Source of the DNA: a virus | Virus record (IMG/VR): IMGVR_UViG_3300032323_003414 | Coordinates: 1-58,208 of that record | Length of the DNA stretch: 58,208 nucleotides | Strand: one strand, 5' to 3' | Part shown: positions 40,054 through 58,208 of the stretch, in pieces | How the letters are laid out: each line of letters begins with the position of its first letter | Numbering within the stretch: position 1 is the first letter of the stretch | The notes under the pieces: generated by a model | What the model saw: only the letters and a program-made list of their open reading frames with translations | Told to the model about the DNA's origin: nothing | Database searches by the model: none | Made by a program: the position numbers and the translations under genes

Positions 40054-40969
40054 CATAGCAGATTTAGATTGCATTTATCTTTCGTACGACGAACCACAGA
40101 AGGAAGAATTCTGGGTACGAATTAAAAACATGGTGCCCTGGGCAAAACGTGTAGACGGAGTCAAAGGGTCAGATGCCGCACACAAAGCAGCCGCAGACGC
40201 CAGCGACACCGAACGGTTCATCTTGATTGACGGTGATAACTTACCACAAGAAAACTTTTTTAATTTAACTCTTGAATACCCAGACGACAATTGGGAAAAA
40301 GCTGTATTCCGTTGGCGAGCACGTAATCATGTCAACGGGCTAATGTACGGCAATGGTGGACTCAGTAGTTGGACTCGTGAATTTGTATGGAATATGAAAA
40401 CCCACGAAGCCACAGATGGCCGAACAGAAACTGAAGTAGAGTTTTGTTTTGATCCCTTGTACTGGCCCATGCATGATTGTTATTCAACTACATACCCCAA
40501 CGGATCTCCTTTTCATGCCTGGAGAGCAGGCTTCCGCGAAGGTGTTAAGATGTGCTTAGATCGTGGACGTAAACCCACTGTCAGTGAATTTAAAGACAGT
40601 GTACATAAACGAAACTTTGATCATCTCTCTATCTGGCACAACGTAGGTTGTGATGTTGAAAATGGGTTCTGGGCTATTGCTGGAGCCCGTCAAGGTACAT
40701 ACATGACCATGCTCAGTGAGTGGGATCATAAAGAAGTACAAAATTTTGACTGCTTAAAAAATATTTGGGAAGCAGTGGCAGCCCCTAGAGAACCTGGCGA
40801 TTTAATCGATCAATACCACGAGCCGTTAAACACACAGCTGGGCTTGCCTATGGCATTTATGCCTCCTTTCCAGAGTGCATTCTTCAAAGATCACTATCGT
40901 AGTAATTGGCATAATCGTGGTGTAATGACCAGAGAGATTGATGTCATTCGGAGTCAAGAAGGATGGTAA
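40040..40969 (+). CDS. Glycosyltransferase-like protein with DGDN motif
   Basis: 309 residues. CIYLSYDEPQKEEFW opens the fold, VPWAKRVDGVKGSDAAHKAAADAS follows, and FILIDGDN (60-67) gives a DxD-like motif. WRARNHVNGLMYGNGGLSSWTR resembles an acceptor-side loop. The same pattern (SDGVNGRAAAYHAAAQAS, NPVNGLEYGHQAM) recurs in the third repeat of the 534-residue protein at 55907, so the two are paralogous over about 130 residues. This family is widespread in aquatic phages, without an assigned reaction. It overlaps the next radical SAM gene by seven bases. Confidence 0.6.
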   Translation: MTQIDIADLDCIYLSYDEPQKEEFWVRIKNMVPWAKRVDGVKGSDAAHKAAADASDTERFILIDGDNLPQENFFNLTLEYPDDNWEKAVFRWRARNHVNGLMYGNGGLSSWTREFVWNMKTHEATDGRTETEVEFCFDPLYWPMHDCYSTTYPNGSPFHAWRAGFREGVKMCLDRGRKPTVSEFKDSVHKRNFDHLSIWHNVGCDVENGFWAIAGARQGTYMTMLSEWDHKEVQNFDCLKNIWEAVAAPREPGDLIDQYHEPLNTQLGLPMAFMPPFQSAFFKDHYRSNWHNRGVMTREIDVIRSQEGW

Positions 40970-42390: not shown

Positions 42391-43390
42391 GCCTGGCCTA
42401 GCACTCAATTATTTAAAACAAGACCCAGATATTCAAATTGACCGTCTAGGCAACTGTCAATCAACTCATTATATTATCAGTCTAGCTACATTTACTCAGC
42501 AGTGGCCGCAAGTACTAGACCTACTAACTCAAGGCAGTATTATTGCTGTTGAAAAAACTGATGAAAGTGTTGTGACACAATGGCATATAGTCAAACATCA
42601 AGATTACAATCCCTGGATTAAATCTGGGCAGTTGAGATTTATCACAGGAGGTGCCGCTCCTGTTGAGGTAAGGAATTTAAACAGCGAGCATTTTTTGGCA
42701 GCAACCATTGGCAGTCAGGCCTATGGTATGCCACTCTTGGACTACAAACATTGTCGTAAACCTTACAATTTTTTGTTTACCAATCGCAAGGTACGCCCAC
42801 ATCGCAGATATCTTATTCACCGTTTAGAACAAGAAGGGCTGTTCAAAAATGCACTATGGTGCAATCACGAAGGACACAGTACCTGGGGGCATCCAGAATT
42901 TAATATCAACTATACCAATGAAAACATTCCAGTGCAGTCTTTACCGCCAGGGTACGACCCAGATCAACTGCCAGACTGGGTAGATGGTATTGTGGTAAAA
43001 GAACAATATCTTGACACATGGTTTAGTTTGGTGTCTGAAACAGTGTTTGAATCTCCGGCTAGTTTTAGAACTGAAAAATTCTATAAACCCATAATAGCAG
43101 GACATCCATTTGTGGTCTGTGCCAACACAGGTTTCTATCAAGATTTACACAATCTTGGGTTTCGATCATTTAATCACTTGATTGATGAATCATTTGATGT
43201 TACAATAAATGGTAAAGACCGTATTGATCGCCTAGTAGACACTGTAAAATGGTTGTGCCAACAAGACTTAGCAGAATTTTGGCAAGCCGCTAGAGAAGTA
43301 TGTTTATACAACCAGCACCGAGCTTTAGAACTACATAATAGCCAGCACCAATATTTTACGCAACAATTGAAAGATTTCATGCATGCCTAG
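42374..43390 (+). CDS. 'TEK' family putative glycosyltransferase (copy 1)
   Basis: 338 residues from the ATG at 42374; a GTG at 42365 is possible. The C-terminal third holds SETVFESPASFRTEKFYKPIIAGHPFVVCANTGFY, then LGFRSFNHLIDESFD. The same TEK-(x)2-KPI...PF...G...GF-T/S-F...DESYD signature occurs in three other proteins here. It resembles the donor-binding end of GT-B enzymes such as the FucT (GT10) group, where a TEK-like motif precedes an aromatic-hydrophobic run. A glycosyltransferase is therefore likely but unproven. It lies between two radical SAM genes and overlaps both. Confidence 0.55.
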   Translation: MPIIVEPGLALNYLKQDPDIQIDRLGNCQSTHYIISLATFTQQWPQVLDLLTQGSIIAVEKTDESVVTQWHIVKHQDYNPWIKSGQLRFITGGAAPVEVRNLNSEHFLAATIGSQAYGMPLLDYKHCRKPYNFLFTNRKVRPHRRYLIHRLEQEGLFKNALWCNHEGHSTWGHPEFNINYTNENIPVQSLPPGYDPDQLPDWVDGIVVKEQYLDTWFSLVSETVFESPASFRTEKFYKPIIAGHPFVVCANTGFYQDLHNLGFRSFNHLIDESFDVTINGKDRIDRLVDTVKWLCQQDLAEFWQAAREVCLYNQHRALELHNSQHQYFTQQLKDFMHA

Positions 43391-44735
43391 ATTAAACAAC
43401 GAAACAGATCTTGAATACAAACGCAGAGTAATTGACATCAAGTCAGAGTCATTCTGCGGAGCCAAGTGGTACAACGCTACTATATGGTTGGGATCTGGTA
43501 TGACCACAAGTTGTCATCATCCGTTGCCGCATAAAGTTGAAATAGCAGATGTTGAGGCCAACCCTAAAGCATTGCATAACACTCCTAAAAAGAAACAGGA
43601 ACGTGAGCAAATGCAACAAGGAGAACGCCCACGTGGATGCGAATATTGTTGGAAAATTGAAGACATAGGTCGCGACAATGTGTCAGACCGTGTGTACAAA
43701 ACTGTGCTGTATTCAGATGAGGATTTAGATCATGCATTCAATTTACCCGCAGGCCAAGATGTGGATTTACAAACACTGGAAATTGCTTTTGACCGTACTT
43801 GCCAATTCGCTTGTTCTTATTGCAATCCGGCATTCTCAAGCACATGGGTGCGTGATATCAAACAACACGGAGCATATCAAGGACTTGTAAGTGACGGACG
43901 TAATCATTTTACTCACCCACACGACTCTGCACAGCTTTATACAATCAATGATGTGAATCCCTATGTGGAAGCGTTCTTTGCCTGGTGGGAGTCAGACCTA
44001 CACCGTACTCTCAAAGAACTACGCATCACAGGTGGTGAACCGTTGATGTCAGGCTACACCTGGAAGTTGTTAGATTGGTTCAAAGACAATCGTGGTAAAA
44101 GTTCCACACGCTTGGCAATCAATTCAAATCTTGGAATGTCAACAGAAGATGTTGTTAAGCTATTAGATCGGGCTGATGGTATTGCATTGGACTTGTATAC
44201 TTCAAACGAAAGCATGTCTGGTCATGCAGAATACATCCGAGATGGCCTGGATTGGAAGCAATGGATCGCCAACATGCATATGCTGGCTAATAGCGGTCGC
44301 CTGCGAGGACTGCATGTGATGTGTACTATCAACGCACTGTGCCTTGAATCATTGCCAGAGTTTTTGGATCACATGTTAGAATTCAAACAACAATATGGCA
44401 GAGACTTTCCAACTTTTACATTGAATATCTTACGCTTTCCAAGTTTTCAATCACCATTGGTATTGCCCGACGACCTACGTCAAGAACGTGGCAATAGATT
44501 GCAAAAGTGGTATGATGCTAACAAAGATAGCTCACTGTTACATCAGATGGAAATCAATCAAGTTCAAAGATTGATAGACTATCTTGACGTTGTTAAAACG
44601 CCTCACTCAGACACATTTGATCGTGCAAGTCTACACAATGATTTTAAACGGTTTCACGAACAGTATGATCAACGTCGTGGAAAAGACTTTACAAAAACAT
44701 TTCCTGCCTTGGCAGATTGGTACAACACATTATGA
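43383..44735 (+). CDS. N-terminal-twitch radical SAM protein (operon copy 2)
   Basis: 450 residues, the closest paralogue of the 475-residue protein at 40963. Auxiliary cysteines are Cys25, Cys44, Cys86 and Cys89. The SAM-cluster motif is CQFACSYC at 140-147, and ITGGEPLMSG follows near 220. Both copies share an HxPLxHK segment (HPLPHKVEI here, HPPLHKIRI there), an HNT-KKQ stretch before the CxxC pair, and a YIRDGL segment later. The similarity and the single intervening gene suggest duplication followed by specialisation. The start overlaps the preceding gene by eight bases. Confidence 0.85.
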   Translation: MPRLNNETDLEYKRRVIDIKSESFCGAKWYNATIWLGSGMTTSCHHPLPHKVEIADVEANPKALHNTPKKKQEREQMQQGERPRGCEYCWKIEDIGRDNVSDRVYKTVLYSDEDLDHAFNLPAGQDVDLQTLEIAFDRTCQFACSYCNPAFSSTWVRDIKQHGAYQGLVSDGRNHFTHPHDSAQLYTINDVNPYVEAFFAWWESDLHRTLKELRITGGEPLMSGYTWKLLDWFKDNRGKSSTRLAINSNLGMSTEDVVKLLDRADGIALDLYTSNESMSGHAEYIRDGLDWKQWIANMHMLANSGRLRGLHVMCTINALCLESLPEFLDHMLEFKQQYGRDFPTFTLNILRFPSFQSPLVLPDDLRQERGNRLQKWYDANKDSSLLHQMEINQVQRLIDYLDVVKTPHSDTFDRASLHNDFKRFHEQYDQRRGKDFTKTFPALADWYNTL

Positions 44736-46057
44736 CTAGTCCAGAAAGAAAATTAAGCAATTACAATTGGAACGAGCGCAAGCCAGTGTATATCGATGTG
44801 GAAGAATTATCAGATATTCAACAACACCGACTCATGGAAAGTCGACATTTTTGTATGATTCCTTGGATACACATGCATGGCTACCCTGACGGTCGTGCAT
44901 ATCCTTGCTGTCTCGGAGAAGAAACACATCCAGTAGGGGATCTTAAACAACATACAATCAAAGAAATCTGGAACCAAGAAGACTATCGAGAGATGCGACG
45001 AAACATGCTGGCAGACAAACCTAGTCGTCAGTGTGTGCGTTGCTATGAGCAAGAAGATGCTGGATTTGCCAGCATGCGCAATAACTCCAATCGACACTTT
45101 GGCCACCATATCAAAGACGTTGACATTACCTTGCCTGACGGCACACATCCTGAATTTGAAATACGTTACTGGGATGTAAGATTCAGTAACATTTGCAATC
45201 TCAAATGTCGTAGTTGTGGAAGTATATTCTCTAGTCGATGGTATGATGATGATGTTAAATTGCACGGCAAACCATTCCGTCCTCGTGTGCAGTATGCTGG
45301 CAAAACAGAACTGGACATTTGGGAACAGATGCAAGAGCACATTCCGCACTTAGAACAAATTTACTTTGCTGGTGGCGAACCTTTGATTATGGAAGAGCAC
45401 AATCGCATTTTAAAAATGTTAATCGAAACAGGTAATACTGGAGTTCGTCTAATATACAACACCAATCTAACTGAGCTTAAATTTAAAAAAGAAAGTGTAC
45501 TTGATCTATGGAAGCAGTTCCCACAAGTGTGTGTTGCGGCCAGCCTTGATGACATGGGAGAACGTGCTGGAATTATACGCTCAGGCACAGTGTGGGAAGA
45601 AGTAGAACAAAACATACGAGATCTAAAACGAGAATGTCCACACATTGATTTTATGATTAGTCCTACTCTTAGTGTGTTAAACATTTGGAACTTTTGTGAA
45701 TTCCATCGATACATGGTTGATCAAGGATTTATTCGTCCGTGCGATATGAATTTAAACATACTGCAAGGCCCTCGCGAATATCGCATTGATATCTTGCCAC
45801 AAGACATCAAGCTAGAACTCAAAGCCAAATTTGAACGTCATTTAGAATGGCTACGACCGCTTGATCACTTGAATCGTGCCACTGGCGGATTTGAAGCAGC
45901 CATACAGTTTATGATGGCACAAGATTGCACTGATATGTTGGCGAAATTTTGGAAAATTACCACAGACTTGGACTGGAGTCGTAACGAAAGTATTTTACAA
46001 GTTGTTCCTGAACTCAAACAAATATCAAAATATAAACCCGAAGGATTAAGAGAATGA
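44732..46057 (+). CDS. N-terminal-twitch radical SAM protein (operon copy 3)
   Basis: 441 residues from the ATG in an ATGA overlap; an upstream TTG at 44717 is less likely. Residues FCMIPW (Cys41), PCC (Cys59/60) and CVRC (101-104) precede the SAM-cluster motif CNLKCRSC at 155-162. AGGEPLIMEEH follows. The pattern C-x17-CC-x40-CxxC is the CC-pair subgroup shared with copies 4 and 5 and with the protein between gp47 and gp46. A leading ~35 residues (KPVYIDVEELSD) are extra. The strand after the core (VCVAASLDDMGE) differs from the usual FSIDG, so the active-site pocket probably differs too. Confidence 0.85.
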   Translation: MTSPERKLSNYNWNERKPVYIDVEELSDIQQHRLMESRHFCMIPWIHMHGYPDGRAYPCCLGEETHPVGDLKQHTIKEIWNQEDYREMRRNMLADKPSRQCVRCYEQEDAGFASMRNNSNRHFGHHIKDVDITLPDGTHPEFEIRYWDVRFSNICNLKCRSCGSIFSSRWYDDDVKLHGKPFRPRVQYAGKTELDIWEQMQEHIPHLEQIYFAGGEPLIMEEHNRILKMLIETGNTGVRLIYNTNLTELKFKKESVLDLWKQFPQVCVAASLDDMGERAGIIRSGTVWEEVEQNIRDLKRECPHIDFMISPTLSVLNIWNFCEFHRYMVDQGFIRPCDMNLNILQGPREYRIDILPQDIKLELKAKFERHLEWLRPLDHLNRATGGFEAAIQFMMAQDCTDMLAKFWKITTDLDWSRNESILQVVPELKQISKYKPEGLRE

Positions 46058-47274
46058 ATATTCCACACGACTCATTTTGTGTGCTACCTTGGCTGAGTCT
46101 TGAGGCCAGTCCTATTGGCACTGTGCGTCCTTGCTGTCTAGCACTAGATGAAATTAAAGACAATGACGGCAACAAGTTCAAATTACAGCAAAGTACTTTC
46201 ATTGAAATACAAAACAGCGATCACATGAAAAAACTTCGCAACGAATTTTTAGATGGTAAAAAACCACAGACATGTAAACGTTGCTGGGATGAAGAAAGAT
46301 CTGGACGTACCAGCAAACGTATGCACACACTAGACAGACTCAAAGGAATGGTTGATCACAATATTTCTTGGAGTGCTGATGCTAAACCTTTGCTGTTTTT
46401 AGATCTCAAGCTGGGAAATATTTGCAATCTCAAATGTCGCATTTGCGGTTCCTGGTCATCCAGTACCTATGCCGCTGAAGATTTGAATTTCTTTACTACC
46501 CCCGAGCTAAAGAAAAGTAGTTTTAGTTATCAAATGCTACGAGATGGAGCTTGGCCCAGAGAGAATAGTCAATTTTGGACAGAACTAGAGAATACACTAA
46601 CAGACATACGTTACATAGAGTTTACCGGCGGCGAGCCTTTTATGATTCAAGAGCACTTTGATTTGTTGAAACGCCTGGTAGAAAAAGGCCTGGCTGGACA
46701 AATTGAAATACACTACAACACCAATGGTACACAATGGCCCGAAGGCGCTGAAGAAATTTGGCAGCACTTCAAAAATGTAGAAATAGCATTTAGCATTGAT
46801 GATGTAGGAGAAAGATTTGAATACCAACGATCAAATGCTATCTGGACAGAAGTACAAAACAACATTGCTAGATTTATTGCATTACGACACAAGCTATCAA
46901 ATATTAGATTACAAATATGTTGTACTGTGAATGTGTTTAATGTGTATTATCTTAATGACGTAGCTCGTTGGATCTACGACTTGACATTTGATTTTGTATA
47001 TTGGAATGTGCTACACGACCAATTCTACTTCAGCATTGGTACATTGCCGGCAACAGCCAAAGAAGCCATTGAACGTCATTTAAGATCACAGACATGGCCA
47101 GAAAAATGTCGTTCAGAAATTGATGGCATCATTGATTTCATGAACAAAGGCACCAGCCTGGATGGAAATTTATTAAGAATGCATGCCAAAGAATTAGACT
47201 TTAAACGAAATCAAAGTCTATCAACAGTGTCACCAGAGTTTGCCGCATTGATTGGATATGAGGTTAATGAATAA
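46054..47274 (+). CDS. N-terminal-twitch radical SAM protein (operon copy 4)
   Basis: 406 residues, the smallest of the five. FCVLPW (Cys9), PCC (Cys27/28) and CKRC (74-77) lead to CNICNLKC-type residues, with the SAM-cluster cysteines at 124, 128 and 131. TGGEPFMIQEH and AFSIDDVGERFEYQRS follow. It joins copy 3 by an ATGA overlap and resembles it strongly (the GERxxxxRS and WxEVxxNI stretches are shared), so the pair look like a tandem duplication. The substrate is unknown. The overlap suggests equal amounts of both proteins and perhaps a complex. Confidence 0.85.
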   Translation: MNIPHDSFCVLPWLSLEASPIGTVRPCCLALDEIKDNDGNKFKLQQSTFIEIQNSDHMKKLRNEFLDGKKPQTCKRCWDEERSGRTSKRMHTLDRLKGMVDHNISWSADAKPLLFLDLKLGNICNLKCRICGSWSSSTYAAEDLNFFTTPELKKSSFSYQMLRDGAWPRENSQFWTELENTLTDIRYIEFTGGEPFMIQEHFDLLKRLVEKGLAGQIEIHYNTNGTQWPEGAEEIWQHFKNVEIAFSIDDVGERFEYQRSNAIWTEVQNNIARFIALRHKLSNIRLQICCTVNVFNVYYLNDVARWIYDLTFDFVYWNVLHDQFYFSIGTLPATAKEAIERHLRSQTWPEKCRSEIDGIIDFMNKGTSLDGNLLRMHAKELDFKRNQSLSTVSPEFAALIGYEVNE

Positions 47275-48175
47275 AATAACCCTTGTGATGCTACCGGAGT
47301 ACGTGAGTGCATTCGCTATGAAGCACCTACGTTCAGTATTTTCTCAATGGTTTGAATTTACCAACTATGAATCAGGAAAAGCCTACGGTCGTGAGTGTGT
47401 GTTTATTACGCATCACGATAAAGATCAAGTTCTAGCCGATCATCTTTGGCAACAGGGTTGCAAAGTGGCAGTAGAAGAGCTATGGGAATATCCTAGAACA
47501 CACCCTCGTTATTATACTATCAATTGTTCCAAATGGTTTTGGTTTAACGAAGCATTTTGGTACATGTCTTTGGGCTACGATCGTTATTACCCAACAAGAA
47601 AATTTTCCAAATTGGCGTTGATGCCAATGGGCAGGCGCCGTCCGTTTAGAGATCAGATTGTTGAACAGTTGGGTCCTATGTTGGATTTATTTGTATGGAG
47701 TTACTACGATCGCATGTTGCCCAATGATCTACCACTGGAACAAAGAGAGCCCGGCGACAAAATGGCCTGGACACGACATTTCAATCCAGACTGGTACGAC
47801 AACACTAGTTTTAGTTTAGTGGTAGAGACTCAAGTCACTGGCGTAGACTTTGTCACAGAAAAAACCTGGAAGCCCATTGCATACATGCACCCATTTTTGA
47901 TTCTTGGCCCAAATGGCACATTAAAAAATCTACGATCCTGGGGGTTCGAGACCTATGATAACTTGTTTGACGAAAGCTATGATTTGGTAGACTTTGACAA
48001 AGGCAAACTAGACATCATCATTGACAATGTTAAAAATTTTCAACCTTCCACCTACGACGATGAAACAAGAGATAGAGTGGCTTTTAATAAAAATAGATTT
48101 TTTAGCACACACATTATTAAAACGCAAATAAAGAAAGACATCGTAGATCCGTTGCAGGAGTTTATCAATGAGTAA
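47267..48175 (+). CDS. 'TEK' family putative glycosyltransferase (copy 2)
   Basis: 302 residues from the ATG at 47267, which has GAGG just upstream; TTG 47252 and ATG 47258 are alternatives. The N-terminal half has a Rossmann-like start (ITLVMLPEYVSAF). The C-terminal part reads FSLVVETQVTGVDFVTEKTWKPIAYMHPFLILG, then LRSWGFETYDNLFDESYD, the TEK signature. It is much closer to the two minus-strand copies at 53663 and 54859 than to copy 1 in this motif. It overlaps the radical SAM genes on both sides. Donor and acceptor are unknown. Confidence 0.6.
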   Translation: MNKITLVMLPEYVSAFAMKHLRSVFSQWFEFTNYESGKAYGRECVFITHHDKDQVLADHLWQQGCKVAVEELWEYPRTHPRYYTINCSKWFWFNEAFWYMSLGYDRYYPTRKFSKLALMPMGRRRPFRDQIVEQLGPMLDLFVWSYYDRMLPNDLPLEQREPGDKMAWTRHFNPDWYDNTSFSLVVETQVTGVDFVTEKTWKPIAYMHPFLILGPNGTLKNLRSWGFETYDNLFDESYDLVDFDKGKLDIIIDNVKNFQPSTYDDETRDRVAFNKNRFFSTHIIKTQIKKDIVDPLQEFINE

Positions 48176-49469
48176 ACCCGATACATTATGCATGGCACCG
48201 TGGACTCACACCTACCTGAGCCCGCAAACAGAACGTCGGTTGTGCTGTGCATCAAGAGAACCTGCACAAAATTTTGAACAGTATATTGACACTGCTGCCG
48301 GCACTGGAAAATATATTCCGATCACACTAGAAGATCATTGGAACAGTGAACACATGAAGTCGGTGCGTCGACGCATGATGGCAGGAGAAACTTTGCCAGA
48401 ATGTGCAGTGTGCAACGAAAAGTTATTAAATACTGACGTCTATCGCAGTTATTTTTGGGGATTGTTTGGTCACAAGTATGATCAAGTCATGCAAGAAACC
48501 ACACCAGACGGCGTCACTACAATGAAACCTGTGAGTTGGGACTATAGATTTTCCAACTTGTGTAATTTTAAATGTCGTATGTGTGGCGACATGCTTTCAA
48601 GTTCGTGGGAAAGCGAACAACGCAAGCATGACATGGTTGACTGGACTAATCCCAAAAACAACTGGATGCGTCCTGAAGTCAAACGTGAAATCACAAAGTT
48701 TCAAGACACACAGATAGAAGCAGAGTTTGCCCAAGCAGTTGAAGAACACCGTGTTGAAGAGATTTATTGGGTAGGCGGAGAACCGCTGATGTACGAACAG
48801 CATTGGCGTTATATGAAAAGAATTATTGAACTAGGTGACGGACCAAAACTTTATGCAAGATACAATACCAACCTTAGCCGCGTGGATTATAATGGGATTA
48901 GTCTTTATCGTGATTTGTTATCAAATATACGTGACTTCCAAATCTGTGCAAGCATCGACGGAACAGGACAAATCGGAGAATACATCAGAACCGGTCTGGC
49001 CTGGCCCGTATTTTTAGAAAATTTCAAACGTGGTTTAGAGATAGCACGTCATCGTAGACAAATGCGACTGGACTTTACGTTGACTCTGCCCGGCTTGTTT
49101 GAAGTAGAAAACATGCAACGCATTGCCAATGAACTAGGAGTTGATATCTTGGCCAAAGTAGTATTTGCGTTTACTCCAGACATTGTAATGAGCCCGTTAG
49201 CACTGCCCAGAGAGCTATTGAATCGCACTGTTGATCGTTTGATTCCTACCACACATGGTGCTTTAACAGATGTGCTACTACAACTTAAGAATCGCCCTAA
49301 CTTTGAAGAACAATGGCCAGATCAATATCAGGCAGGCCTTGCAAAAGGCAAGACACGTGTGTTAAAATTAGAACAGATAAGGAATGATTCGTTCACTATG
49401 AACGACATATTAAAACAAGATGCAGACATATATGCCTGGTGGCAAGACATTAGACCAAGTAACAATTGA
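48168..49469 (+). CDS. N-terminal-twitch radical SAM protein (operon copy 5)
   Basis: 433 residues. LCMAPW (Cys8), LCC (Cys26/27) and CAVC (79-82) precede the SAM-cluster motif CNFKCRMC at 132-139. VGGEPLMYEQHW follows, then CASIDGTGQIGEYIRTG. The spacing between CC and CxxC is about ten residues longer than in copies 3 and 4. It belongs to the CC-pair subgroup. It overlaps the preceding TEK gene by eight bases and the following unknown gene by about 50, the longest overlap in the operon. Confidence 0.85.
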   Translation: MSKPDTLCMAPWTHTYLSPQTERRLCCASREPAQNFEQYIDTAAGTGKYIPITLEDHWNSEHMKSVRRRMMAGETLPECAVCNEKLLNTDVYRSYFWGLFGHKYDQVMQETTPDGVTTMKPVSWDYRFSNLCNFKCRMCGDMLSSSWESEQRKHDMVDWTNPKNNWMRPEVKREITKFQDTQIEAEFAQAVEEHRVEEIYWVGGEPLMYEQHWRYMKRIIELGDGPKLYARYNTNLSRVDYNGISLYRDLLSNIRDFQICASIDGTGQIGEYIRTGLAWPVFLENFKRGLEIARHRRQMRLDFTLTLPGLFEVENMQRIANELGVDILAKVVFAFTPDIVMSPLALPRELLNRTVDRLIPTTHGALTDVLLQLKNRPNFEEQWPDQYQAGLAKGKTRVLKLEQIRNDSFTMNDILKQDADIYAWWQDIRPSNN

Positions 49470-50520
49470 GCTTAAGAACAGAGAAACACAAGAACTGTTT
49501 CCTGTGCGTGTCAATGTGTTCGACAACTCACTGAGTCGTAAATGGCTCACAGCTCTCAATGAACTGTTACAACAAAACTATCATTTAGAAAAAAACTATT
49601 GTTTCTTTGGCTTTGTTGATCATAAAAGAAACGGTTGGCACATACTCAATGAAGTAAATCGTAGCATTGACGCTATTAACCGCGCTGAGCTTGGATACCA
49701 TATCGACGATTACTTTGATATGAACAACACTATCACAGACGATCCCATAGATGGTCGCGCAGTGGGTCGCAATGTACGTCAGGAAAAGCTCAACTGGTTA
49801 CACAGATACTTTGAAGATTTGCAAGGTGTCAGCGGAGCTCCTAAAGAATATTATCTGCGAGCAGACTCTGCCACACGTTGGCATATACGTCAGCTTAACT
49901 TGTTGTGTCACGAATTTGAATCCTGGGCACTGAGTTATCGTAAACAAATAGAAGCACCTGAATGGCAACGTCCTAGTCAATTGATGTGTTGGCTAAATGC
50001 TCCACGCTTTGTGTTAGATGAGGCTGACTATGAACTGTTTGGTATAGAAACAATCAATAGACCTCTGGGTGGAGTGTTTGTTGGAGTAAACAAAGCAGTA
50101 GGAAAACATCATTGGGAAGTATTTCAGGACGAGGGCAGAGACAGTAGAGTTGGCGAGTTAGTATCAACCACCCTACGCAGTCAAACTGAAGCCGCTGGTG
50201 ACTTTGATATAGAGTGGGCCAATAACCCAGGCAACTATGAATGGCAAAAGATACGATTGAAAGAATTTCGTGAATGGCTTGCGGTGAATGGGTTTAATCC
50301 TGACGATCCTGCACTGACCATCGGCCATCCACAAATTGGACAAGTCGACCTAATAGATACATTCTGGACAAATGATTATCAAGCTATTTGGAAACGCCTA
50401 AATACACATCTTGATGTGTACAGTGTGCGTACCACGGATGCTCGCGCAGTCTACGACTATTGCTGGAGCGATCCAGACCATGCACAACGTCAGATCAATA
50501 TTATAGGAAGCAACAAATGA
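49420..50520 (+). CDS. Unknown protein in the radical SAM operon (366 residues)
   Basis: I do not recognise this protein. It begins ~50 bases inside the preceding radical SAM gene; ATG codons at 49420 and 49432 are both possible and neither has a clear ribosome site. Visible blocks are VRVNVFDNSLSRKWLTAL, HRYFEDLQG, CHEFESWALSYRKQ, LNAPRFVLDEADYELFG and NRPLGGVFVGVNKAVGKHHWEVFQ. There is no signal peptide, transmembrane segment or known catalytic motif. It is Trp- and His-rich. Its fixed place between the last radical SAM gene and the carbamoyltransferase makes it a candidate partner, acceptor or new enzyme in the pathway. Confidence 0.7.
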   Translation: MQTYMPGGKTLDQVTIELKNRETQELFPVRVNVFDNSLSRKWLTALNELLQQNYHLEKNYCFFGFVDHKRNGWHILNEVNRSIDAINRAELGYHIDDYFDMNNTITDDPIDGRAVGRNVRQEKLNWLHRYFEDLQGVSGAPKEYYLRADSATRWHIRQLNLLCHEFESWALSYRKQIEAPEWQRPSQLMCWLNAPRFVLDEADYELFGIETINRPLGGVFVGVNKAVGKHHWEVFQDEGRDSRVGELVSTTLRSQTEAAGDFDIEWANNPGNYEWQKIRLKEFREWLAVNGFNPDDPALTIGHPQIGQVDLIDTFWTNDYQAIWKRLNTHLDVYSVRTTDARAVYDYCWSDPDHAQRQINIIGSNK

Positions 50521-50618
50521 AATGGTTACGCAACTTGATCAATAGGATCAAACTTGAAATACGTTATCGTAAAAAATTAAAAGAACTTCGCAAACGAGAT
50601 CCTTTCATCTACAAATGA
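50517..50618 (+). CDS. 33-residue basic peptide
   Basis: A short gene joined by ATGA overlaps to the gene before and to the carbamoyltransferase after it, which strongly supports translation. The peptide is MKWLRNLINRIKLEIRYRKK followed by LKELRKRDPFIYK: about 40% Lys/Arg, an amphipathic helix and a DPFIYK tail. Small proteins of this style (a basic helix ending in DPFIY-K/E) are, to my recollection, widespread in cyanophage-like genomes. It lacks cysteine, serine and threonine, which weighs against most thioether or glycosylated peptide products; the two tyrosines and the lysines could still be modified. The function is unknown. Confidence 0.7.
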   Translation: MKWLRNLINRIKLEIRYRKKLKELRKRDPFIYK

Positions 50619-52099
50619 AACACATACTTGGTATCAGTGCAGGGTTCCACGATGCGGCAGCCACAGTCATCAACTCAGATGGTGAAATAGTTTTTGCCGG
50701 CCACTCAGAACGCTACAGCAAAGTCAAGAATGATTCTAACTTATGTGATGCACTGTTGTCTGAATTGTGCAAGTGGCAGTACAATACTGTGGCCTGGTAC
50801 GAACGGCCTTGGCTACATAATTTACGGCAGTTATATTCTGGACAACAGATCACAGAGCCCTGGACTACACGTGGCGCACTTCGCAAGCACCTAGGTGCAT
50901 GGTATCAACACCCTGCAAAAAATGAAGTCAGCTACCCACATCATCTAAGTCATGCTGCCGCAGGATTTCAAACAAGTCCGTACACCAAGGCCACAGTGAT
51001 TGTAATTGATGCCATTGGTGAATGGGACACTATCAGTATTTGGGGTGCGCATTATGTTGATGGCAAGGCCAAGTATCATCGGCTATGGGGACAACGATAC
51101 CCACACAGCATTGGATTATTTTATACAGCAATCACGCAACGTGTTGGCCTACGTCCACTAGACGAAGAATACATTACCATGGGCATGGCTGCCTACGGTG
51201 AACGTGGATTCAGTGAGCTACTTAAACACGATTTTGTCGACAATGATTGGGACATGACATTTAAACAAAATCTACATGCTGGTGTAGATCCTAAATATTT
51301 AGACTATATCAGCAACTATGACTTGGCCGCAGGCGCACAAGATCTAGTTGAAACCTTGATATATAATGTAATGCAACGTGCCAGAGACTTTGGCTGGTCA
51401 CGCAATTTGGTTTACATGGGCGGTGTTGCTTTAAATTGTTTGGCAAATAGAAACCTAGGAAATTATTTTGATAACATTTGGATTATGCCTAATCCTGGCG
51501 ATGCTGGCAGTAGTCTGGGCAGTGCGGCGCTGGCTTACGGAAAACAGATACATTGGAAAAACGCCTTTCTTGGTCATGACATTCCTGGTGCTTATCCTGT
51601 CGATAATATTATCGACGAGCTTTTGGTCAATAAAATTGTTGGTGTGGCCAGTGGTCGTGCAGAGTTTGGCCCCAGAGCCTTGGGAAACAGAAGTCTGCTT
51701 GCAGACCCCCGCGGCCCAGAAATAAAAGATCGTGTAAATGAAATCAAACGTCGCCAACAATTTAGACCGTTCGCTCCAGTAATACTAGAAGAGTGTGTCA
51801 ACGATTATTTTGACATGCCTCAAAACTACACAAGCAGTCCGTACATGCAGGTAGTAGCACATTGCCGTCATCCTGACCAGTTTCCAGCAATTATACATGT
51901 AGATGGTACTAGCCGTGTACAAACTGTGAGCAAAGATTGTGGATCGGGCATTAGACAACTGCTAGAGAGGTGGTATGTGGAAACAGGATGTCCCATGTTG
52001 CTTAACACCAGTTTAAACATACGTGGTGAACCCATGGTCAACGATCGAGCAGATGCCGATCGCTTTGAACAACTGTATGGAGTAAAGGTCTGTAGTTAA
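50615..52099 (+). CDS. Carbamoyltransferase (NodU/CmcH family)
   Basis: 494 residues with the two family domains. The N-terminal Kae1-like domain starts ILGISAGFHDAAATVI and holds the metal-binding HHLSHAA motif at 109-115. A YMGGVALNCLANR segment follows near 268. The C-terminal YrdC-like-positioned domain carries EFGPRALGNRSLLADPR (about 350-366), KRRQQFRPFAP and NTSLNIRGEPMV near 465. These enzymes transfer a carbamoyl group from carbamoyl phosphate, through carbamoyl-AMP, to hydroxyls of sugars or antibiotics. At ~494 residues it is slightly shorter than NodU. Its placement after five radical SAM genes and before a GT25 gene implies an O-carbamoylated glycan or metabolite. Confidence 0.9.
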   Translation: MKHILGISAGFHDAAATVINSDGEIVFAGHSERYSKVKNDSNLCDALLSELCKWQYNTVAWYERPWLHNLRQLYSGQQITEPWTTRGALRKHLGAWYQHPAKNEVSYPHHLSHAAAGFQTSPYTKATVIVIDAIGEWDTISIWGAHYVDGKAKYHRLWGQRYPHSIGLFYTAITQRVGLRPLDEEYITMGMAAYGERGFSELLKHDFVDNDWDMTFKQNLHAGVDPKYLDYISNYDLAAGAQDLVETLIYNVMQRARDFGWSRNLVYMGGVALNCLANRNLGNYFDNIWIMPNPGDAGSSLGSAALAYGKQIHWKNAFLGHDIPGAYPVDNIIDELLVNKIVGVASGRAEFGPRALGNRSLLADPRGPEIKDRVNEIKRRQQFRPFAPVILEECVNDYFDMPQNYTSSPYMQVVAHCRHPDQFPAIIHVDGTSRVQTVSKDCGSGIRQLLERWYVETGCPMLLNTSLNIRGEPMVNDRADADRFEQLYGVKVCS

Positions 52100-52680
52100 T
52101 GAATCAACCTCATTGCTATGTAATTGCACACCCAACATCACGAGTTGTCAATGATTGCATAGCAAGTCTTAAAAAACATGGATGGGCATTTGAAGTCTTT
52201 CCAGCAGTAAATGGTCATACAGTCACAGAACAAACTTGGAAGTCCGTTGGGGTACAAATGTCAAGTAACGGAAAAATGCCACGTAGACCAGGAGCACAAG
52301 GTTGTTGGATAAGTCACTGGCGTTTGTGGAATCGCTGTGTAGACACTGACCGACCCATAGTTATCTTGGAACATGATGCCGTAGTAACAGCACCTTGGCC
52401 CACTGATCTAGATATTGAATCAACTCTAGTAAAACTTTATACAACTGCAGAATGCAAAGTTAATCCAGCATTTGGTCTTTGGAGTAAAGGGTCGTATGCT
52501 TATACATTAACACCTGCACAAGCGCAACGTTTGATTGACTATGCTCGCACCAACGGTGCGCAAGCAGTAGACAAACATCTAGGAGAGCAAGTGTTGCCTT
52601 GGAGATTTCATTCCAAAGATTTGATTGTGCTCAACCCGCATAGAGGTAAAAGCACAACTTCATCAAAGATAAGTTTCTAA
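52099..52680 (+). CDS. GT25-type glycosyltransferase
   Basis: 193 residues. PRRPGAQGCWISHWRLWNRC (62-80) and IVILEHDAVV (87-96) match the GT25 (Lex1/LPS galactosyltransferase) pattern, in which GC..SH precedes an E-x-D motif. Here the motif is EHD at 91-93. The WSKGSYAYTLTPAQAQRLID segment near 133 also fits the family. The acceptor is unknown. The start overlaps the carbamoyltransferase stop by one base. The 3' end overlaps the converging amidinotransferase gene by 18 bases, so the plus operon ends here. Confidence 0.8.
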   Translation: MNQPHCYVIAHPTSRVVNDCIASLKKHGWAFEVFPAVNGHTVTEQTWKSVGVQMSSNGKMPRRPGAQGCWISHWRLWNRCVDTDRPIVILEHDAVVTAPWPTDLDIESTLVKLYTTAECKVNPAFGLWSKGSYAYTLTPAQAQRLIDYARTNGAQAVDKHLGEQVLPWRFHSKDLIVLNPHRGKSTTSSKISF

Positions 52681-53691
52681 TCCGCCACGACGGCGTATGT
52701 CTTGAGTACAGCAACTTACTCCACCGTCCCAGAAATAACTGTGTCGTAGTTCGGCAATGATAGGATTGATCTTATGCTTGGTACAAAAATCAAATACCTG
52801 TTTGTTGTAGGCACTAAAAATAACATTTTCTTCGTCTAGTACCAGGCAGTTTACATCAAACACAGTTTCACTGACAAAACCAGTCCACTTATTCAGGTAG
52901 TCGTCAACAAAGGTTGAAAACTCTGGAGTAGGTGTTTGACCTTGAACATACCAACGTCCATTAAAATTTTCTTCCTTGAACTTGCCAACTTCCATGGCTG
53001 CCCAAATTGAGCTGTCCCAAACCTTGCAAACTTCCCAATTGGGAAAGTCTCTTTCAAAATTTAAATTCTGATCGTGTTTACTTGATAGTATCACACCAGG
53101 TTTTAATATAGCAAATACAGCATCGCCATGTCCATCTGTGACTGCTTCATGTATGCGATATTCAGGACCCAATACAGTGTCTACAATCCAACGGGTCTGT
53201 TCAGGTTTTAAGAAGTCACTGTTATCAAAAAATACATCACGCCCTACACGCACAATACAACTGGCCGAAGCTCCGTTTAAAATGCAATCGTCTTTCCAAG
53301 TACCACCGTGCGGATCAATTACTTGATTGCCATATAGCCGACAAATATTGTCAAGTTCGTTGATTGGTAACACTCTTAGCAATTTTTGTCCCAATGAAAT
53401 TTGCCAATCTCTAGGTGTGAGTGGCGGTAACGGCGCACCAAACCCTTGTGTTTGTGCTAATTGAAATATGTCTTTGTTAGGCAATTCAGGACGACGCACT
53501 GTGGCGCCATAGGTTTCAATGATCTTTTGTAGATTATCTAAATCTTCTTTGGTCTCAGATAAGATTTGTTGTAATTGATTGCGTACCTGCGGGCTTTCAA
53601 TAAAATCAAAATATTCAGGGTCATAGGCCCGCCCTACAATAACTTCTTCTAAGGGTTGCCAACTAGTATAACTGTTTACTAAGGGTTGCAT
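52663..53691 (-). CDS. Amidinotransferase-family protein
   Basis: 342 residues from the ATG at 53691; a TTG at 53709 would add six. SWQPLEEVIVGRAYDP (10-25) is the typical start of the glycine/inosamine amidinotransferase family. A TPRD segment (92-95), GHGDAVF with His188 and Asp190, and GGVSCCTQDIRR with the likely nucleophile at Cys327 or Cys328 complete the catalytic set. These enzymes move an amidino group from arginine to an amine, making guanidino compounds as in creatine or streptomycin synthesis. The amine acceptor here is unknown. It is the last gene of a three-gene leftward unit. Confidence 0.85.
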   Translation of the reverse strand: MQPLVNSYTSWQPLEEVIVGRAYDPEYFDFIESPQVRNQLQQILSETKEDLDNLQKIIETYGATVRRPELPNKDIFQLAQTQGFGAPLPPLTPRDWQISLGQKLLRVLPINELDNICRLYGNQVIDPHGGTWKDDCILNGASASCIVRVGRDVFFDNSDFLKPEQTRWIVDTVLGPEYRIHEAVTDGHGDAVFAILKPGVILSSKHDQNLNFERDFPNWEVCKVWDSSIWAAMEVGKFKEENFNGRWYVQGQTPTPEFSTFVDDYLNKWTGFVSETVFDVNCLVLDEENVIFSAYNKQVFDFCTKHKINPIIAELRHSYFWDGGVSCCTQDIRRRGGLETYL

Positions 53692-54868
53692 ATTGTTGAG
53701 TTCTTTCAAGTAGGGTATTTAAACGGTCCGTCTTGGGAGCTAAAAATAACTGCTGATTGTGTAGTAAGTCCTGTTGACAGTCAATGTACATCTGATGCAA
53801 ATCAATTGACATCAACCTTTCAAATTCTTTAAACGCACGGTCCCAACGCTGGGTATTGTCTTCTATAGAATCGTAACTGTGATCAATCACATGATCAAAA
53901 GTACGATAGCCCATTTGTTGTAATTTTGCAATGGTACCCACAGCGCCAAATATAATAAAAGGTTGGCTGTGTTTGATTGGCTTAAATGTTTTTTCTGTTA
54001 GAAATACGCCACCACTTTGATCGCAGTCAAGATGTGTTTCCAATACAACATTGAGGTAGCTGTCTTCAAAGTGTTCTTTCACAGTTGATGAATATAAATT
54101 GTGTTGAGCACTATCTAATTCATCGGCAATAAACGGGCATTGAGATAGAAAATTGTTTACTTTGTCGAATAACCCAACAAAGTTTAAAATACGCACAGGG
54201 GACTCACGCCAGTGTTCTCCGGTGCTTAGATCGCTGTTGTAAGAAAAGTACCCGTCCTGATGAAGCCCTTGATCCCAGATTCTTGCCATTGTGGCTGCTC
54301 GCCACCACTTGTGTGTTCTTACTAACGCTGTAAATTTTTTTGATCTAGGGCGAGTGTGAAACTCAATAGGTGCATCTTTATTTCTTAATTGATACAAACA
54401 TTCATCATCAGCAAAGTAATGAAATCTAGGAATACCATCAGCTGAGCTATTTGCACTGGTAAACTGTACGCATTCCATGGGTACTTCATGCTTGGCTGCA
54501 AGTTGTCTCAGATGCTGTTGTATCTTTTGGGGGTTATCAGCTTCACTGTAAAAGAACCATATGGTCATACTTTTAGATCTTAATTTTTCTCTAATGATTG
54601 ATGGAATAATAGCAAACCAATCAACTCCAAAGTCAAAATAACTAATACTTATAGGGTACAATGTTTGTTTTGTTGCCTGGGTCCAAGGAACAAACTTATA
54701 ATCAATGCCATTGCTATCTAGATATTCAAAAAAATGCACAGGTTCACTGTAAGGCCAATTTGTGCTAAATTGTCTCCACTCCGGAGTGTATGGTTGGGCC
54801 TGCCAGGTTGCGGCATTGGGATACGGTTTTCCGTTGATAATGTTATCTATACAAAATGTCAAAGCCAT
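53663..54868 (-). CDS. 'TEK' family putative glycosyltransferase (copy 3)
   Basis: 401 residues. The first ~150 residues include a Rossmann-like MTIWFFYSEADNP strand. A middle part reads KKFTALVRTHKWWRAATMARIW. The C-terminal SYLNVVLETHLDCDQSGGVFLTEKTFKPIKHSQPFIIFG, then MGYRTFDHVIDHSYD, is the TEK signature near 280-345. In this copy the DESYD motif is DHSYD. Glycosyl transfer is inferred from resemblance to GT-B donor-binding ends, not proven. It is coupled to copy 4 upstream (ten-base overlap) and to the amidinotransferase downstream. Confidence 0.6.
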   Translation of the reverse strand: MALTFCIDNIINGKPYPNAATWQAQPYTPEWRQFSTNWPYSEPVHFFEYLDSNGIDYKFVPWTQATKQTLYPISISYFDFGVDWFAIIPSIIREKLRSKSMTIWFFYSEADNPQKIQQHLRQLAAKHEVPMECVQFTSANSSADGIPRFHYFADDECLYQLRNKDAPIEFHTRPRSKKFTALVRTHKWWRAATMARIWDQGLHQDGYFSYNSDLSTGEHWRESPVRILNFVGLFDKVNNFLSQCPFIADELDSAQHNLYSSTVKEHFEDSYLNVVLETHLDCDQSGGVFLTEKTFKPIKHSQPFIIFGAVGTIAKLQQMGYRTFDHVIDHSYDSIEDNTQRWDRAFKEFERLMSIDLHQMYIDCQQDLLHNQQLFLAPKTDRLNTLLERTQQYATLSKQLY

Positions 54869-55908
54869 GATTTCATCATTGTGGTTAATTCAGACCATAA
54901 TAAGTTTTCAAAATTTTGACTGTAGAACCAATTAAAGTTATGTTCCACTACAGGAATCAATGCCTGCTGTAACTGCTGTTTTTCTTTCATTGAAAGATTA
55001 TCAAGTTCTTTTAAAAGTTTTCCAATCTTTAAGATTCTAGTATCATCATTAGACTCATCGTAGGATTCATCCCAGAAGTTGCTGAATGTTTTAAATCCGT
55101 ATCTTTTGAGATATTCTAAACTGCCCTGTGTTGACACCAGTACAAACGGTTGTTGCATTACAATAGGTTTAAATGTTTTTTCGGTTAAGTGAAGTTTTTT
55201 TCCGTAATAGGCAGTTTCAGTTATCACATGTAACAACGTTTGATCAGCCAACGACCACATGTCAATGGCATGGCTATTCTTGGCGTAGTCGGTTCCTGTG
55301 TCAATTTTCAAAGGAAGGTCAACGCTGGCCAAATTTATATTGTATTCTTTGCATAATTCTGCCACTGTTTTGTTTTCGTATGGGCATTGATCAGGAAAAC
55401 TTACTAAATTGTTATAAACTAATTCTCGATCAACCAGCTCGCTTAATAGTTCAAGTCGGTGACGCCGTTTCCCTCCAATGATGTTGTTTGGGCATAAAAA
55501 TGTTTTGTTAATGTTTCTATGCCTAAATGGAGTGTACAAGCAAGTGCGATCATACCCACGATACCAATCCAATGCGGCCCAGCCATGAAAGAAATAATAT
55601 GAGCTGTCAAAACCATAAGTATTACACACCCATTTAACTGAATCGCTTTCGGCTTCAGATGTTACTATGGTGTATGGCCCGTTTTTATAAACAGACAAAT
55701 ACTGATCAAAAAAACTTGAAATCAATTCGTGCTGTAATAGCTCCTGATCCCAAAATAACATTCTTCTTTTTGCAAAAACTTCCGAGTTGCACAAGTCAGA
55801 AAATGCGCTGGATCCAAAAGGGTCAAACCATTGTATATCTAAATTGAGAGAATTTGATTGCGAAAATTTAACAAAGATGTTATAATAAATTTCATCGATA
55901 CGAATCAT
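54859..55908 (-). CDS. 'TEK' family putative glycosyltransferase (copy 4)
   Basis: 349 residues. It begins MIRIDEIYYNIF. A middle FLCPNNIIGGKRRHRLELLSEL block resembles the TALVRTHKWWR block of copy 3. The C-terminal HVITETAYYGKKLHLTEKTFKPIVMQQPFVLVS, then YGFKTFSNFWDESYD, is the full TEK signature near 220-280. Tandem arrangement with copy 3 suggests duplication. Its ATG overlaps the divergent ATG of the next gene (CATG at 55906-55909), so its promoter and ribosome site must lie inside that gene. Confidence 0.6.
   Translation of the reverse strand: MIRIDEIYYNIFVKFSQSNSLNLDIQWFDPFGSSAFSDLCNSEVFAKRRMLFWDQELLQHELISSFFDQYLSVYKNGPYTIVTSEAESDSVKWVCNTYGFDSSYYFFHGWAALDWYRGYDRTCLYTPFRHRNINKTFLCPNNIIGGKRRHRLELLSELVDRELVYNNLVSFPDQCPYENKTVAELCKEYNINLASVDLPLKIDTGTDYAKNSHAIDMWSLADQTLLHVITETAYYGKKLHLTEKTFKPIVMQQPFVLVSTQGSLEYLKRYGFKTFSNFWDESYDESNDDTRILKIGKLLKELDNLSMKEKQQLQQALIPVVEHNFNWFYSQNFENLLWSELTTMMKSWL
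55858..55886 (+). promoter_or_regulatory. Sigma70-like promoter inside the neighbouring gene
   Basis: TTGCGA (55858-55863) and TATAAT (55881-55886) are 17 bases apart on the + strand, inside the 5' end of the minus-strand gene. Transcription would begin near 55893, giving a leader of about 14 bases for the gene at 55907. Confidence 0.5.
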
Positions 55909-57511
55909 GTTTGATATTTTTTACCTAAACTATCCCACTCATTTATTTCCGCACGAACGAAAAGCAGATTCTTTGGCACATGCACGTGAAATGAGTCGCA
56001 CGAGATACTTATGGATTGTTGACGGCCACAATGATTATTCAGACTTTGACTGGTCTTGGGAACCAGTGCCTTGGGAGTCGGCCCAGATACATGTATGGCC
56101 CAGTCAGCATCAAGACAACGGCGGAACATATTTGGTACCAAAAGTGGCCACAGAAGAAGTCAATAGGAATCATCCAGAAATACGAAAAATTGGCGCCCAC
56201 CCACGCATTGGTATTGATCATGGTAATGGGTTGTCAATCATGTGCAGAGAAAAAACAAGATACATTTCAGACTATCTTGGCACACTGAGACGCATACTAT
56301 CCAAAACAACACATGAATATGTGTGGGTTGTGAGTAGCGTGTGCGACTACAGTAAGTTTGATTTTACCTGGCATCCTAGTGAATGGCAACAAGACATGTT
56401 GCATGTGTTTGCCAGCAATGAACAAAAGTTTGGGGACACGTTCTATATTCACGTGCCCAGCTTTATGCAAAAAACGTCCGAACTGGCCTTGTTGGAATGG
56501 TTTGATACCATACACTTTGTTCCTGATGTTTCTGTGCCAAGACGCCCTGTACCGGTGGTCCAGCATGACAATGACAGTCAGGTTCCTGCTGTATGGAAAC
56601 ACGATTTCCAAGATCCAGTGGTGCAATTTGTTCGAAACACTCCTGTAGAAAATCCCCCTGCTATTAACTTGTGGCGCGAGAAGATGAAAACTATAGTTCC
56701 GTTGACTCCGGGCGCAGGGTCTGTATTAGTTCCTAGAGAAGCTAAAAATTATCTTAAAAAGCAACTGTATGATTATCCTAACATTGACAAAACACATCGT
56801 ATGTTGAGCAATGATTGTCCTTTGGACATAGTGTTCATCAGCAACGGCGAGCCCAACGCTGAAAGCAACTGGACCAGTCTACTAGAATCAATATACATGA
56901 AGCCAAACAATGTGGTGCGTAGTGATGGTGTAAATGGTCGGGCGGCTGCTTATCATGCGGCAGCTCAAGCCAGTGAAACTGATTGGTTTTTTGCTGTATT
57001 TGCTAAACTAAGAGTCAAGTCAGACTTTGATTGGTCGTGGCAACCTGACCGTATGCAACAGGCCAAGCACTATATCTTCCATGCAAAGAATCCTGTCAAT
57101 GGGTTAGAATATGGCCACCAAGCTATGATTGCCTACAATAAACGATTAGTGTTGGCCAATCCAGGACGTGGACTGGACTTTACCTTGGATGATGAACATG
57201 AAGTGGTACCGTTGTTATCAGGAACAGCAGAGTATGCTCATAGTAAATGGTCAGCGTGGCGTACAGCATTCCGTGAGTGTTTGAAACTCAAAGGTCAAAC
57301 AGATGTAGAGAGCCAGTATAGATTGAATCGTTGGCTAGGACCAATATCCGAAGCTGTAATAAACTCAGAATGGAGCCGATGGGGCGCAGAGGATGCTGTG
57401 GATTACTATGAATCTGTTAATGGTGAATTTGATGAGCTCAAAAAGAGCTATGAGTGGGCGTGGTTGGCCAGTTATGCCTTGCTCAAGCGCAATCTAACAC
57501 CTGATCAATAA
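55907..57511 (+). CDS. Triple-repeat transferase-like protein
   Basis: 534 residues with three related segments. Segment 1 (about 1-85) contains YLWIVDGHNDYSDFDWSW and HVWPSQHQDNGGTYLV. Segment 2 (about 120-190) has YVWVVSSVCDYSKFDFTW and HVFASNEQKFGDTFYI. Segment 3 (about 305-420) has WFFAVFAKLRVKSDFDWSW and YIFHAKNPVNGLEYGHQAM. Segment 3 is paralogous to the 309-residue GT-like protein at 40040. The DGDN motif of that protein is altered in each repeat here, so some repeats may be structural or carbohydrate-binding. Catalytic function is uncertain. It is a single gene between two leftward units, with a probable promoter of its own, and ends in a 29-base overlap with the aminotransferase gene. 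Confidence 0.6.
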   Translation: MFDIFYLNYPTHLFPHERKADSLAHAREMSRTRYLWIVDGHNDYSDFDWSWEPVPWESAQIHVWPSQHQDNGGTYLVPKVATEEVNRNHPEIRKIGAHPRIGIDHGNGLSIMCREKTRYISDYLGTLRRILSKTTHEYVWVVSSVCDYSKFDFTWHPSEWQQDMLHVFASNEQKFGDTFYIHVPSFMQKTSELALLEWFDTIHFVPDVSVPRRPVPVVQHDNDSQVPAVWKHDFQDPVVQFVRNTPVENPPAINLWREKMKTIVPLTPGAGSVLVPREAKNYLKKQLYDYPNIDKTHRMLSNDCPLDIVFISNGEPNAESNWTSLLESIYMKPNNVVRSDGVNGRAAAYHAAAQASETDWFFAVFAKLRVKSDFDWSWQPDRMQQAKHYIFHAKNPVNGLEYGHQAMIAYNKRLVLANPGRGLDFTLDDEHEVVPLLSGTAEYAHSKWSAWRTAFRECLKLKGQTDVESQYRLNRWLGPISEAVINSEWSRWGAEDAVDYYESVNGEFDELKKSYEWAWLASYALLKRNLTPDQ

Positions 57512-58208
57512 CATACTCAACTTCTAGATCTGACAGCTCGGGATACAACGGTAAAGTCAACACACGTCTACTCAGTGCTGATGCACAGCTCAAAATGTCT
57601 GGACCTTGATACTGTCTAAAAGTTCCAAGTTCGTGAAGCGGCTGGACATAGTGTATCTTGGTTTCAATCTTGCGTATGGCAAGATTTTTTTGTAGTATAT
57701 CTCTGTTGTTGATATCTATCACAAACTTATGGTAAGCATGATCATGATAATTGTCTTGATCAATCAGACAACGTATATCTGATTTTTTTAATCGTTCACG
57801 CCAATAGCCAGCAATCTTAGATCTACGTAACTGCCATGTGTCAATGTGTCGCGATTTGACCAACATATGAGCACAATCTAGTTCGCTCATGCGACTATTA
57901 GTTCCTGTTTCGTTGTGTGTGCTTTTACCGTTGTCTCTCCAGGAACGAACAAAATGTAATATATCACTGTCATTTGTTACTACAGCACCACCATTGCCAT
58001 AGGCTGGCAAGTTCTTCATGGGATCAAAACTAATGGCAGCGGCTTTACCAATACGTTGGCAGTCGGCAGCCAACCAATGCTGTGCGGCATCCTCAATAAT
58101 GAGCTTGTCGTTGAGCATCCATTGACGCCATGTAGCTATATCGCCCATGTGTGTGATACTGGCACCATACAATCCAACCAACACCACGGCTTGATAACTG
58201 ACATTGGG
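57483..58208 (-). CDS. DegT/DnrJ/EryC1 sugar aminotransferase (5' end beyond the window)
   Basis: The frame is open from the right edge; a GTG at 58187 only mimics a start, and PNVSYQAVVLVGLYG reads through it. Visible are IEDAAQHW (the Asp that contacts the PLP nitrogen), SFDPMKNLPAYGNGGAVVTN with the PLP lysine, NSRMSELDCA, and HHYV-like IHYVQPLHELGTF near the end. These are ordered as in the PLP-dependent sugar aminotransferases that make amino sugars on NDP-sugars. The amino group so made could be the acceptor of the amidinotransferase. About 120-150 N-terminal residues must lie to the right of the window. Confidence 0.85.
   Translation of the reverse strand, partial: PNVSYQAVVLVGLYGASITHMGDIATWRQWMLNDKLIIEDAAQHWLAADCQRIGKAAAISFDPMKNLPAYGNGGAVVTNDSDILHFVRSWRDNGKSTHNETGTNSRMSELDCAHMLVKSRHIDTWQLRRSKIAGYWRERLKKSDIRCLIDQDNYHDHAYHKFVIDINNRDILQKNLAIRKIETKIHYVQPLHELGTFRQYQGPDILSCASALSRRVLTLPLYPELSDLEVEYVIDQVLDCA

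Follow-up and report, generated by a model that had tools for sequence, protein, structure and literature searches.

The cyclitol pathway of bluensomycin and streptomycin employs a DegT-type aminotransferase and a StrB-type amidinotransferase, with a carbamoyltransferase in the case of bluensomycin. The saxitoxin cluster holds an amidinotransferase (SxtG) together with a carbamoyltransferase (SxtI). Among phages, "Nol-like" carbamoyltransferases are common in the glycan islands of P-SSM2, S-SSM7 and Mosig, and an amidinotransferase-radical SAM cluster has been noted in Campylobacter phages CP220 and CPt10, in a report whose accessible part makes no link to sugars (PMC2853527). Our literature search found no paper on a phage pathway joining an amidinotransferase with a carbamoyltransferase.

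Here we analyze a window of 58,208 bases, which is the entire stored virus record (IMG/VR IMGVR_UViG_3300032323_003414). The same gene block occurs in 90 related loci, and we lean toward reading it as a phage-encoded pathway for an amino sugar decorated with guanidino and carbamoyl groups and destined for a part of the virion or for a host glycan. Like the bluensomycin/streptomycin route, the block would combine DegT amination, transfer of an amidino group from arginine and O-carbamoylation, and StrB is among the solved relatives of its amidinotransferase. It differs in carrying GT-B-like, GT-A-like and radical SAM genes and no identified inositol-specific enzymes, and its amidinotransferase is only distantly similar to StrB-type enzymes, with an altered residue at the position of Asp254 of AGAT. 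With the saxitoxin cluster it shares the presence of an amidinotransferase (of which SxtG is a distant relative) and a carbamoyltransferase in one cluster; unlike that cluster, it shows no polyketide starter gene, and its context is one of glycosyltransferases and SDR/DegT.

The clusters of Campylobacter phages CP220, CPt10 and F379 resemble the window in combining radical SAM genes with a ("glycine") amidinotransferase; in F379, baseplate genes are followed by a radical SAM array together with this gene and an NDP-sugar transferase. Unlike in the window's clade, no DegT, SDR or carbamoyltransferase is annotated in the 19 kb of F379 examined, and the F379 amidinotransferase belongs to another subfamily, being about 24% identical to the third paralog of the jumbo phages described below. 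The carbamoyltransferases of the glycan islands are relatives of the window's enzyme, whereas few of these cyanophages and pelagiphages yielded an amidinotransferase. The fixed order SDR-DegT-GT-amidinotransferase-carbamoyltransferase was seen only in the window's clade.

Materials and Methods

Since the window is the whole record, the sequence to its right was read in relatives instead. Relatives numbered 41 by viral scan and at least 582 by profile scan. The clade set consists of 90 loci of the window's clade, chosen by amidinotransferase similarity, and all of their proteins were clustered. Fractions of loci refer only to those reaching far enough to show the given gene. Families were also sought in 11 large genomes of 286-364 kb, whose records may be incomplete.

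Results

The window is a fragment of a myovirus, with SbcC/SbcD, baseplate wedge, baseplate hub and tail-fiber families. Its baseplate wedge is nearest to those of jumbo phages, e.g., Agrobacterium phage Atu_ph07 (34%), and the relatives that carry the module are very large freshwater phages of about 290-360 kb, with contigs up to 364 kb. After the baseplate wedge gene, positions 19727-34342 form one open frame (4871 aa), which may encode a giant tail or fiber protein and is a candidate glycosylation target. At 2084-7387, a single run on the minus strand holds SbcC and SbcD with two radical SAM genes interspersed. A 142-aa protein at 1638-2066 matches both a PHROG labeled NAD synthetase and homing endonuclease PHROGs, so that its label is uncertain. 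The features of the block and its surroundings are as follows.

40963..49469, plus strand: five N_Twi_rSAM radical SAM genes adjoining the module (starts 40963, 43383, 44717, 46054, 48168)
42365..43390, plus strand: GT-B TEK family member (profile E 2e-33; not used in building the profile)
47252..48175, plus strand: GT-B TEK family member (profile match; the sequence itself is in the profile)
49420..50520, plus strand: conserved 366-aa protein of no named family
50615..52099, plus strand: O-carbamoyltransferase of NodU/TobZ/CmcH type, 494 aa (PF16861 E 5e-52, PF02543 E 9e-35, phrog_1601 E 2e-94)
52099..52680, plus strand: short GT25-type glycosyltransferase, 193 aa (PF01755 E 3e-11)
52663..53709, minus strand: amidinotransferase-family enzyme (likely start ATG 53691)
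53663..54868, minus strand: GT-B glycosyltransferase-like protein by predicted model, 401 aa, TEKxxKPI motif, overlapping the amidinotransferase gene
54859..55908, minus strand: GT-B family paralog, TEKTFKPI motif (profile 247 bits; the sequence itself is in the profile)
55907..57511, plus strand: protein with GT-A-like domain, 534 aa
57483..58208, minus strand: DegT/DnrJ/EryC1/StrS aminotransferase, N-terminal third lost at the contig end (PF01041 E 7e-40)

A preliminary description of this DNA had placed a NodU/CmcH carbamoyltransferase, an amidinotransferase and a DegT aminotransferase within the last 8 kb of the window, and profile and phmmer matches bear this out. The neighboring GT and radical SAM genes that it mentioned are also real, as seen in the PF01755 match of the GT25 gene and in five NF033640 matches. 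All five radical SAM genes score far above the NF033640 cut-off and have CxxxCxxC motifs; these twitch-domain genes are interleaved with GT-B-like genes across 40963-49469.

The carbamoyltransferase has both Pfam domains, and its HH..HA (HHxxHA) metal motif and C-terminal EFGPRALGNRS motif are intact. Within the PDB it is closest to novobiocin carbamoyltransferase, GdmN and TobZ. The gene is present in 79/79 clade loci, once per genome in each of the 11 large genomes, and is adjoined by the gene for the 366-aa protein in 75/75 loci. The GT25 gene on its other side is accessory and lies outside the conserved core.

The amidinotransferase has no Pfam, NCBIfam or named PHROG match. By phmmer it is homologous to AGAT (2e-16), StrB (1e-13), HsvA and SxtG, and a profile of its family matches AGAT at E 3e-24 and StrB at E 4e-16. 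ATG 53691 is its likely start, since this matches the 342-aa relatives. The equivalents of AGAT Cys407, His303, Asp170 and Asp305 are invariant in 91/91 amidinotransferase sequences. In AGAT, Asp254 supports the catalytic His; the position of this catalytic residue is Ser in all 91 sequences. Because of this Ser, we name the enzyme amidinotransferase-family only, and its activity is predicted. The distant relatives L020 and L021 have Asp at the equivalent position, and the catalytic Cys is lost in one distant homolog (L119). The jumbo genomes of this clade have further amidinotransferase paralogs at other places, among them a third family that keeps the catalytic Asp (L127:6976-7890, L131:6468-7385, L126:5335-6255). 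It adjoins a UDPG_MGDP dehydrogenase-like gene in 3/3 regions read, the Pfam scan having covered the L127 dehydrogenase only, and a GT-B homolog is nearby in two of the three (L126 and L131). A bacterial donor was also sought in a genome collection; no source was identified among the only three matches, of which two lie by radical SAM arrays and one by carbamoyltransferase genes.

The GT-like proteins receive no name from NCBIfam or Pfam, and a tblastn search of named phages with the GT-B protein gave no match. The 401-aa protein was viewed through its predicted model (pLDDT 93.5), which VIA-align superposes on an alpha-1,3-fucosyltransferase (Z 13.2, 268 residues, rmsd 4.9) and on T4 beta-glucosyltransferase (T4 BGT; Z 12.3). 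The top Foldseek match is also a glycosyltransferase, at an E value of only 2e-3, which is weak alone. In this model the protein is of GT-B fold and GT10-like, and sugar transfer is its predicted activity. Its TEKxxKPI motif is common to three other window proteins; a similar TEK motif is presumably present in GT10 enzymes, which we take as a lead only. Among clade loci, the GT-B protein at 54859..55908 occurs in 83/83 and the other in 77/86. The model of the 534-aa protein (pLDDT 90) matches GT-A enzymes in Foldseek (E about 2e-4 to 1e-3) and in VIA-align (Z about 10-12, mainly residues 302-444). Its gene, present in 73/73 loci, separates the SDR-DegT pair from the GT-B-amidinotransferase run and is read from the other strand.

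The window copy of DegT retains the PLP-lysine motif SFDPMKNLPAYGNGG, and K189 is invariant in 12 sequences, the window included. DegT is found in 71/71 clade loci. Relatives with a complete DegT gene show 54-91% identity to the window copy, except for a divergent type at 27-29%; six clade loci have a divergent DegT together with a Gfo/Idh/MocA oxidoreductase, and twelve have a cytidylyltransferase-like gene. The preliminary description had looked to the sequence right of the window for genes of sugar-nucleotide synthesis, and in the relatives its proposal withstands this check. In 69/69 loci, an extended SDR of the NDP-sugar epimerase family (PF01370 E 1e-44) lies directly upstream of DegT and overlaps it, with conserved GxxGxxG, Ser and YxxxK motifs; a 4,6-dehydratase motif is missing, and an RmlA-type nucleotidyltransferase occurs in 1/11 large genomes. 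The active-site motif of the SDR is SSSMVYG, compared to STDEVYG in 4,6-dehydratases and STSEVYG in UDP-glucuronate decarboxylase, and its score against the NCBIfam model of dTDP-glucose 4,6-dehydratase (RmlB) is 135, where the cut-off is 365. This motif, in which the Asp-Glu dyad is missing, rules out both a 4,6-dehydratase and a UDP-glucuronate decarboxylase. Given the near absence of RmlA-type genes, the sugar nucleotides for the pathway would have to come from the host. The 11 large genomes have 2-7 epimerase-family matches each, and DegT matches at several places per genome, including pieces of short frames.

All four of SDR, DegT, amidinotransferase and carbamoyltransferase are present in 62/62 loci with full flanks, a count that reflects shared descent in one clade and not 62 independent events. 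Gene order and strand are constant in nearly all clade loci. The SDR and DegT genes overlap by a median of 49 bases, and neighbors in the GT-B-GT-B-amidinotransferase run overlap by 14-17. From few pairs, the amidinotransferase has a median dN/dS of 0.066 and the carbamoyltransferase one of 0.15, while the other genes lie at 0.07-0.12; by these ratios, the tested genes of the block are under purifying selection. The retention of the block in 90 loci and these low medians (0.07-0.15) show that it is not a product of chance. As some loci are near-identical and all go back to one arrangement, they show that a core block has been strictly retained, and do not speak for independent assembly.

Discussion

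As a reading of gene content, the decorated amino sugar proposed in the preliminary description appears well supported, with the SDR, the GT-B/GT-A-like genes and an operon in cyanophage S-SCSM2R in its favor and, against it, the Ser at the Asp254 position of the amidinotransferase and the lack in the SDR of the 4,6-dehydratase dyad, and with it of an assigned source for the ketone that DegT would use. The substrates, step order and target that we propose would be as follows. The SDR and DegT would turn a sugar nucleotide, probably the host's, into an amino sugar. The amidinotransferase would then move an amidino group from arginine to the amine of this sugar, making a guanidino sugar, and the carbamoyltransferase would cap a hydroxyl. 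The GT-A-like protein and the two GT-B-like proteins may attach or extend the sugar.

The same enzymes recur in other phages, in combinations that speak for the decorated-sugar reading. In the unrelated cultured Synechococcus cyanophage S-SCSM2R, a tight run reads GT-GT25-GT-DegT-rSAM-GT-2OG oxygenase-"inosamine amidinotransferase"-GT2, where DegT is assigned by annotation name only ("3-amino-5-hydroxybenzoic acid synthase"); a second amidinotransferase of this phage adjoins KdsA/KdsB. Amidinotransferases 33-36% identical to the window's, accompanied by the GT-B family, are found in distant viral loci L022-L024, L026 and L027. In L023 and L026 the amidinotransferase is paired with DegT, and in the distant loci L045, L119 and L120 with a carbamoyltransferase. 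The cultured Pelagibacter phage Mosig (L134, 64094-67647) has overlapping DegT, radical SAM-type and carbamoyltransferase genes and, a few kb from these, a putative epimerase. It is conceivable, at a modest probability, that DegT/SDR, amidinotransferase and carbamoyltransferase are separate genes that share a glycan island and decorate different residues or glycans. The carbamoyltransferase gene lies on the strand opposite to the amidinotransferase gene across a variable gap (median 778 bp), its relatives occur in 135 phage records against only four for the amidinotransferase, no amidinotransferase was detected in Mosig, and several other SDR and DegT genes exist in the large genomes. Nevertheless, none of the four enzymes is absent from any of the 62 full-flank loci, and the pairing of amidinotransferase and DegT recurs in S-SCSM2R, L023 and L026.

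The amidinotransferase could instead serve small-molecule metabolism, making guanidinoacetate or a guanidino form of an amino acid or polyamine, with no relation to sugar. Glycine amidinotransferase is its closest solved relative by score, and the name "glycine amidinotransferase" is frequent in phage annotations. We consider this improbable, for the gene overlaps that of a GT-B-like protein, and amidinotransferase genes lie in sugar/GT clusters of several unrelated phages.

PF00303, the dUMP/dCMP hydroxymethylase family, was found in none of the 11 large genomes, possibly incomplete records, with controls responding in 9/14; a search for the Tet_JBP oxygenase gave 0/11, but there no control responded. 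The first result removes base hypermodification by way of a hydroxymethylase as a candidate. Very unlikely is a sugar placed on a modified base by T4 BGT-like GT-B enzymes for evasion of nucleases, which weakens the DNA shielding entertained in the preliminary description: although the GT-B model does align to T4 BGT, the thymidylate-synthase family is missing from all 11 genomes, the top match of the model is a fucosyltransferase and the block adjoins tail genes. Genome content thus favors a glycan over DNA as the predicted target of the decorated sugar.

The most likely target would be a part of the phage virion, probably tail or fiber, because the block adjoins tail-fiber and baseplate genes here and the F379 cluster adjoins baseplate genes. 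This position beside tail genes is the only hint toward the virion, and a glycan of the host surface is nearly as likely. It is possible, though less likely than not, that these phages place a guanidino/carbamoyl amino sugar of their own making on a tail or fiber glycoprotein of the virion, which would be the first virus-encoded guanidino-sugar pathway.

The presence of related clusters in cultured phages makes the decorated-sugar reading directly testable. If it holds, a kind of sugar familiar chiefly from the antibiotics of bacteria is also made by viruses; a guanidino sugar that is positively charged and capped with carbamoyl groups is a motif known from aminoglycosides. Such a pathway would hint at what the so far unexplained amidinotransferases of cyanophages and Campylobacter phages are for, and, as a core and strictly conserved viral pathway, it would add new chemistry to the virion or the cell surface.
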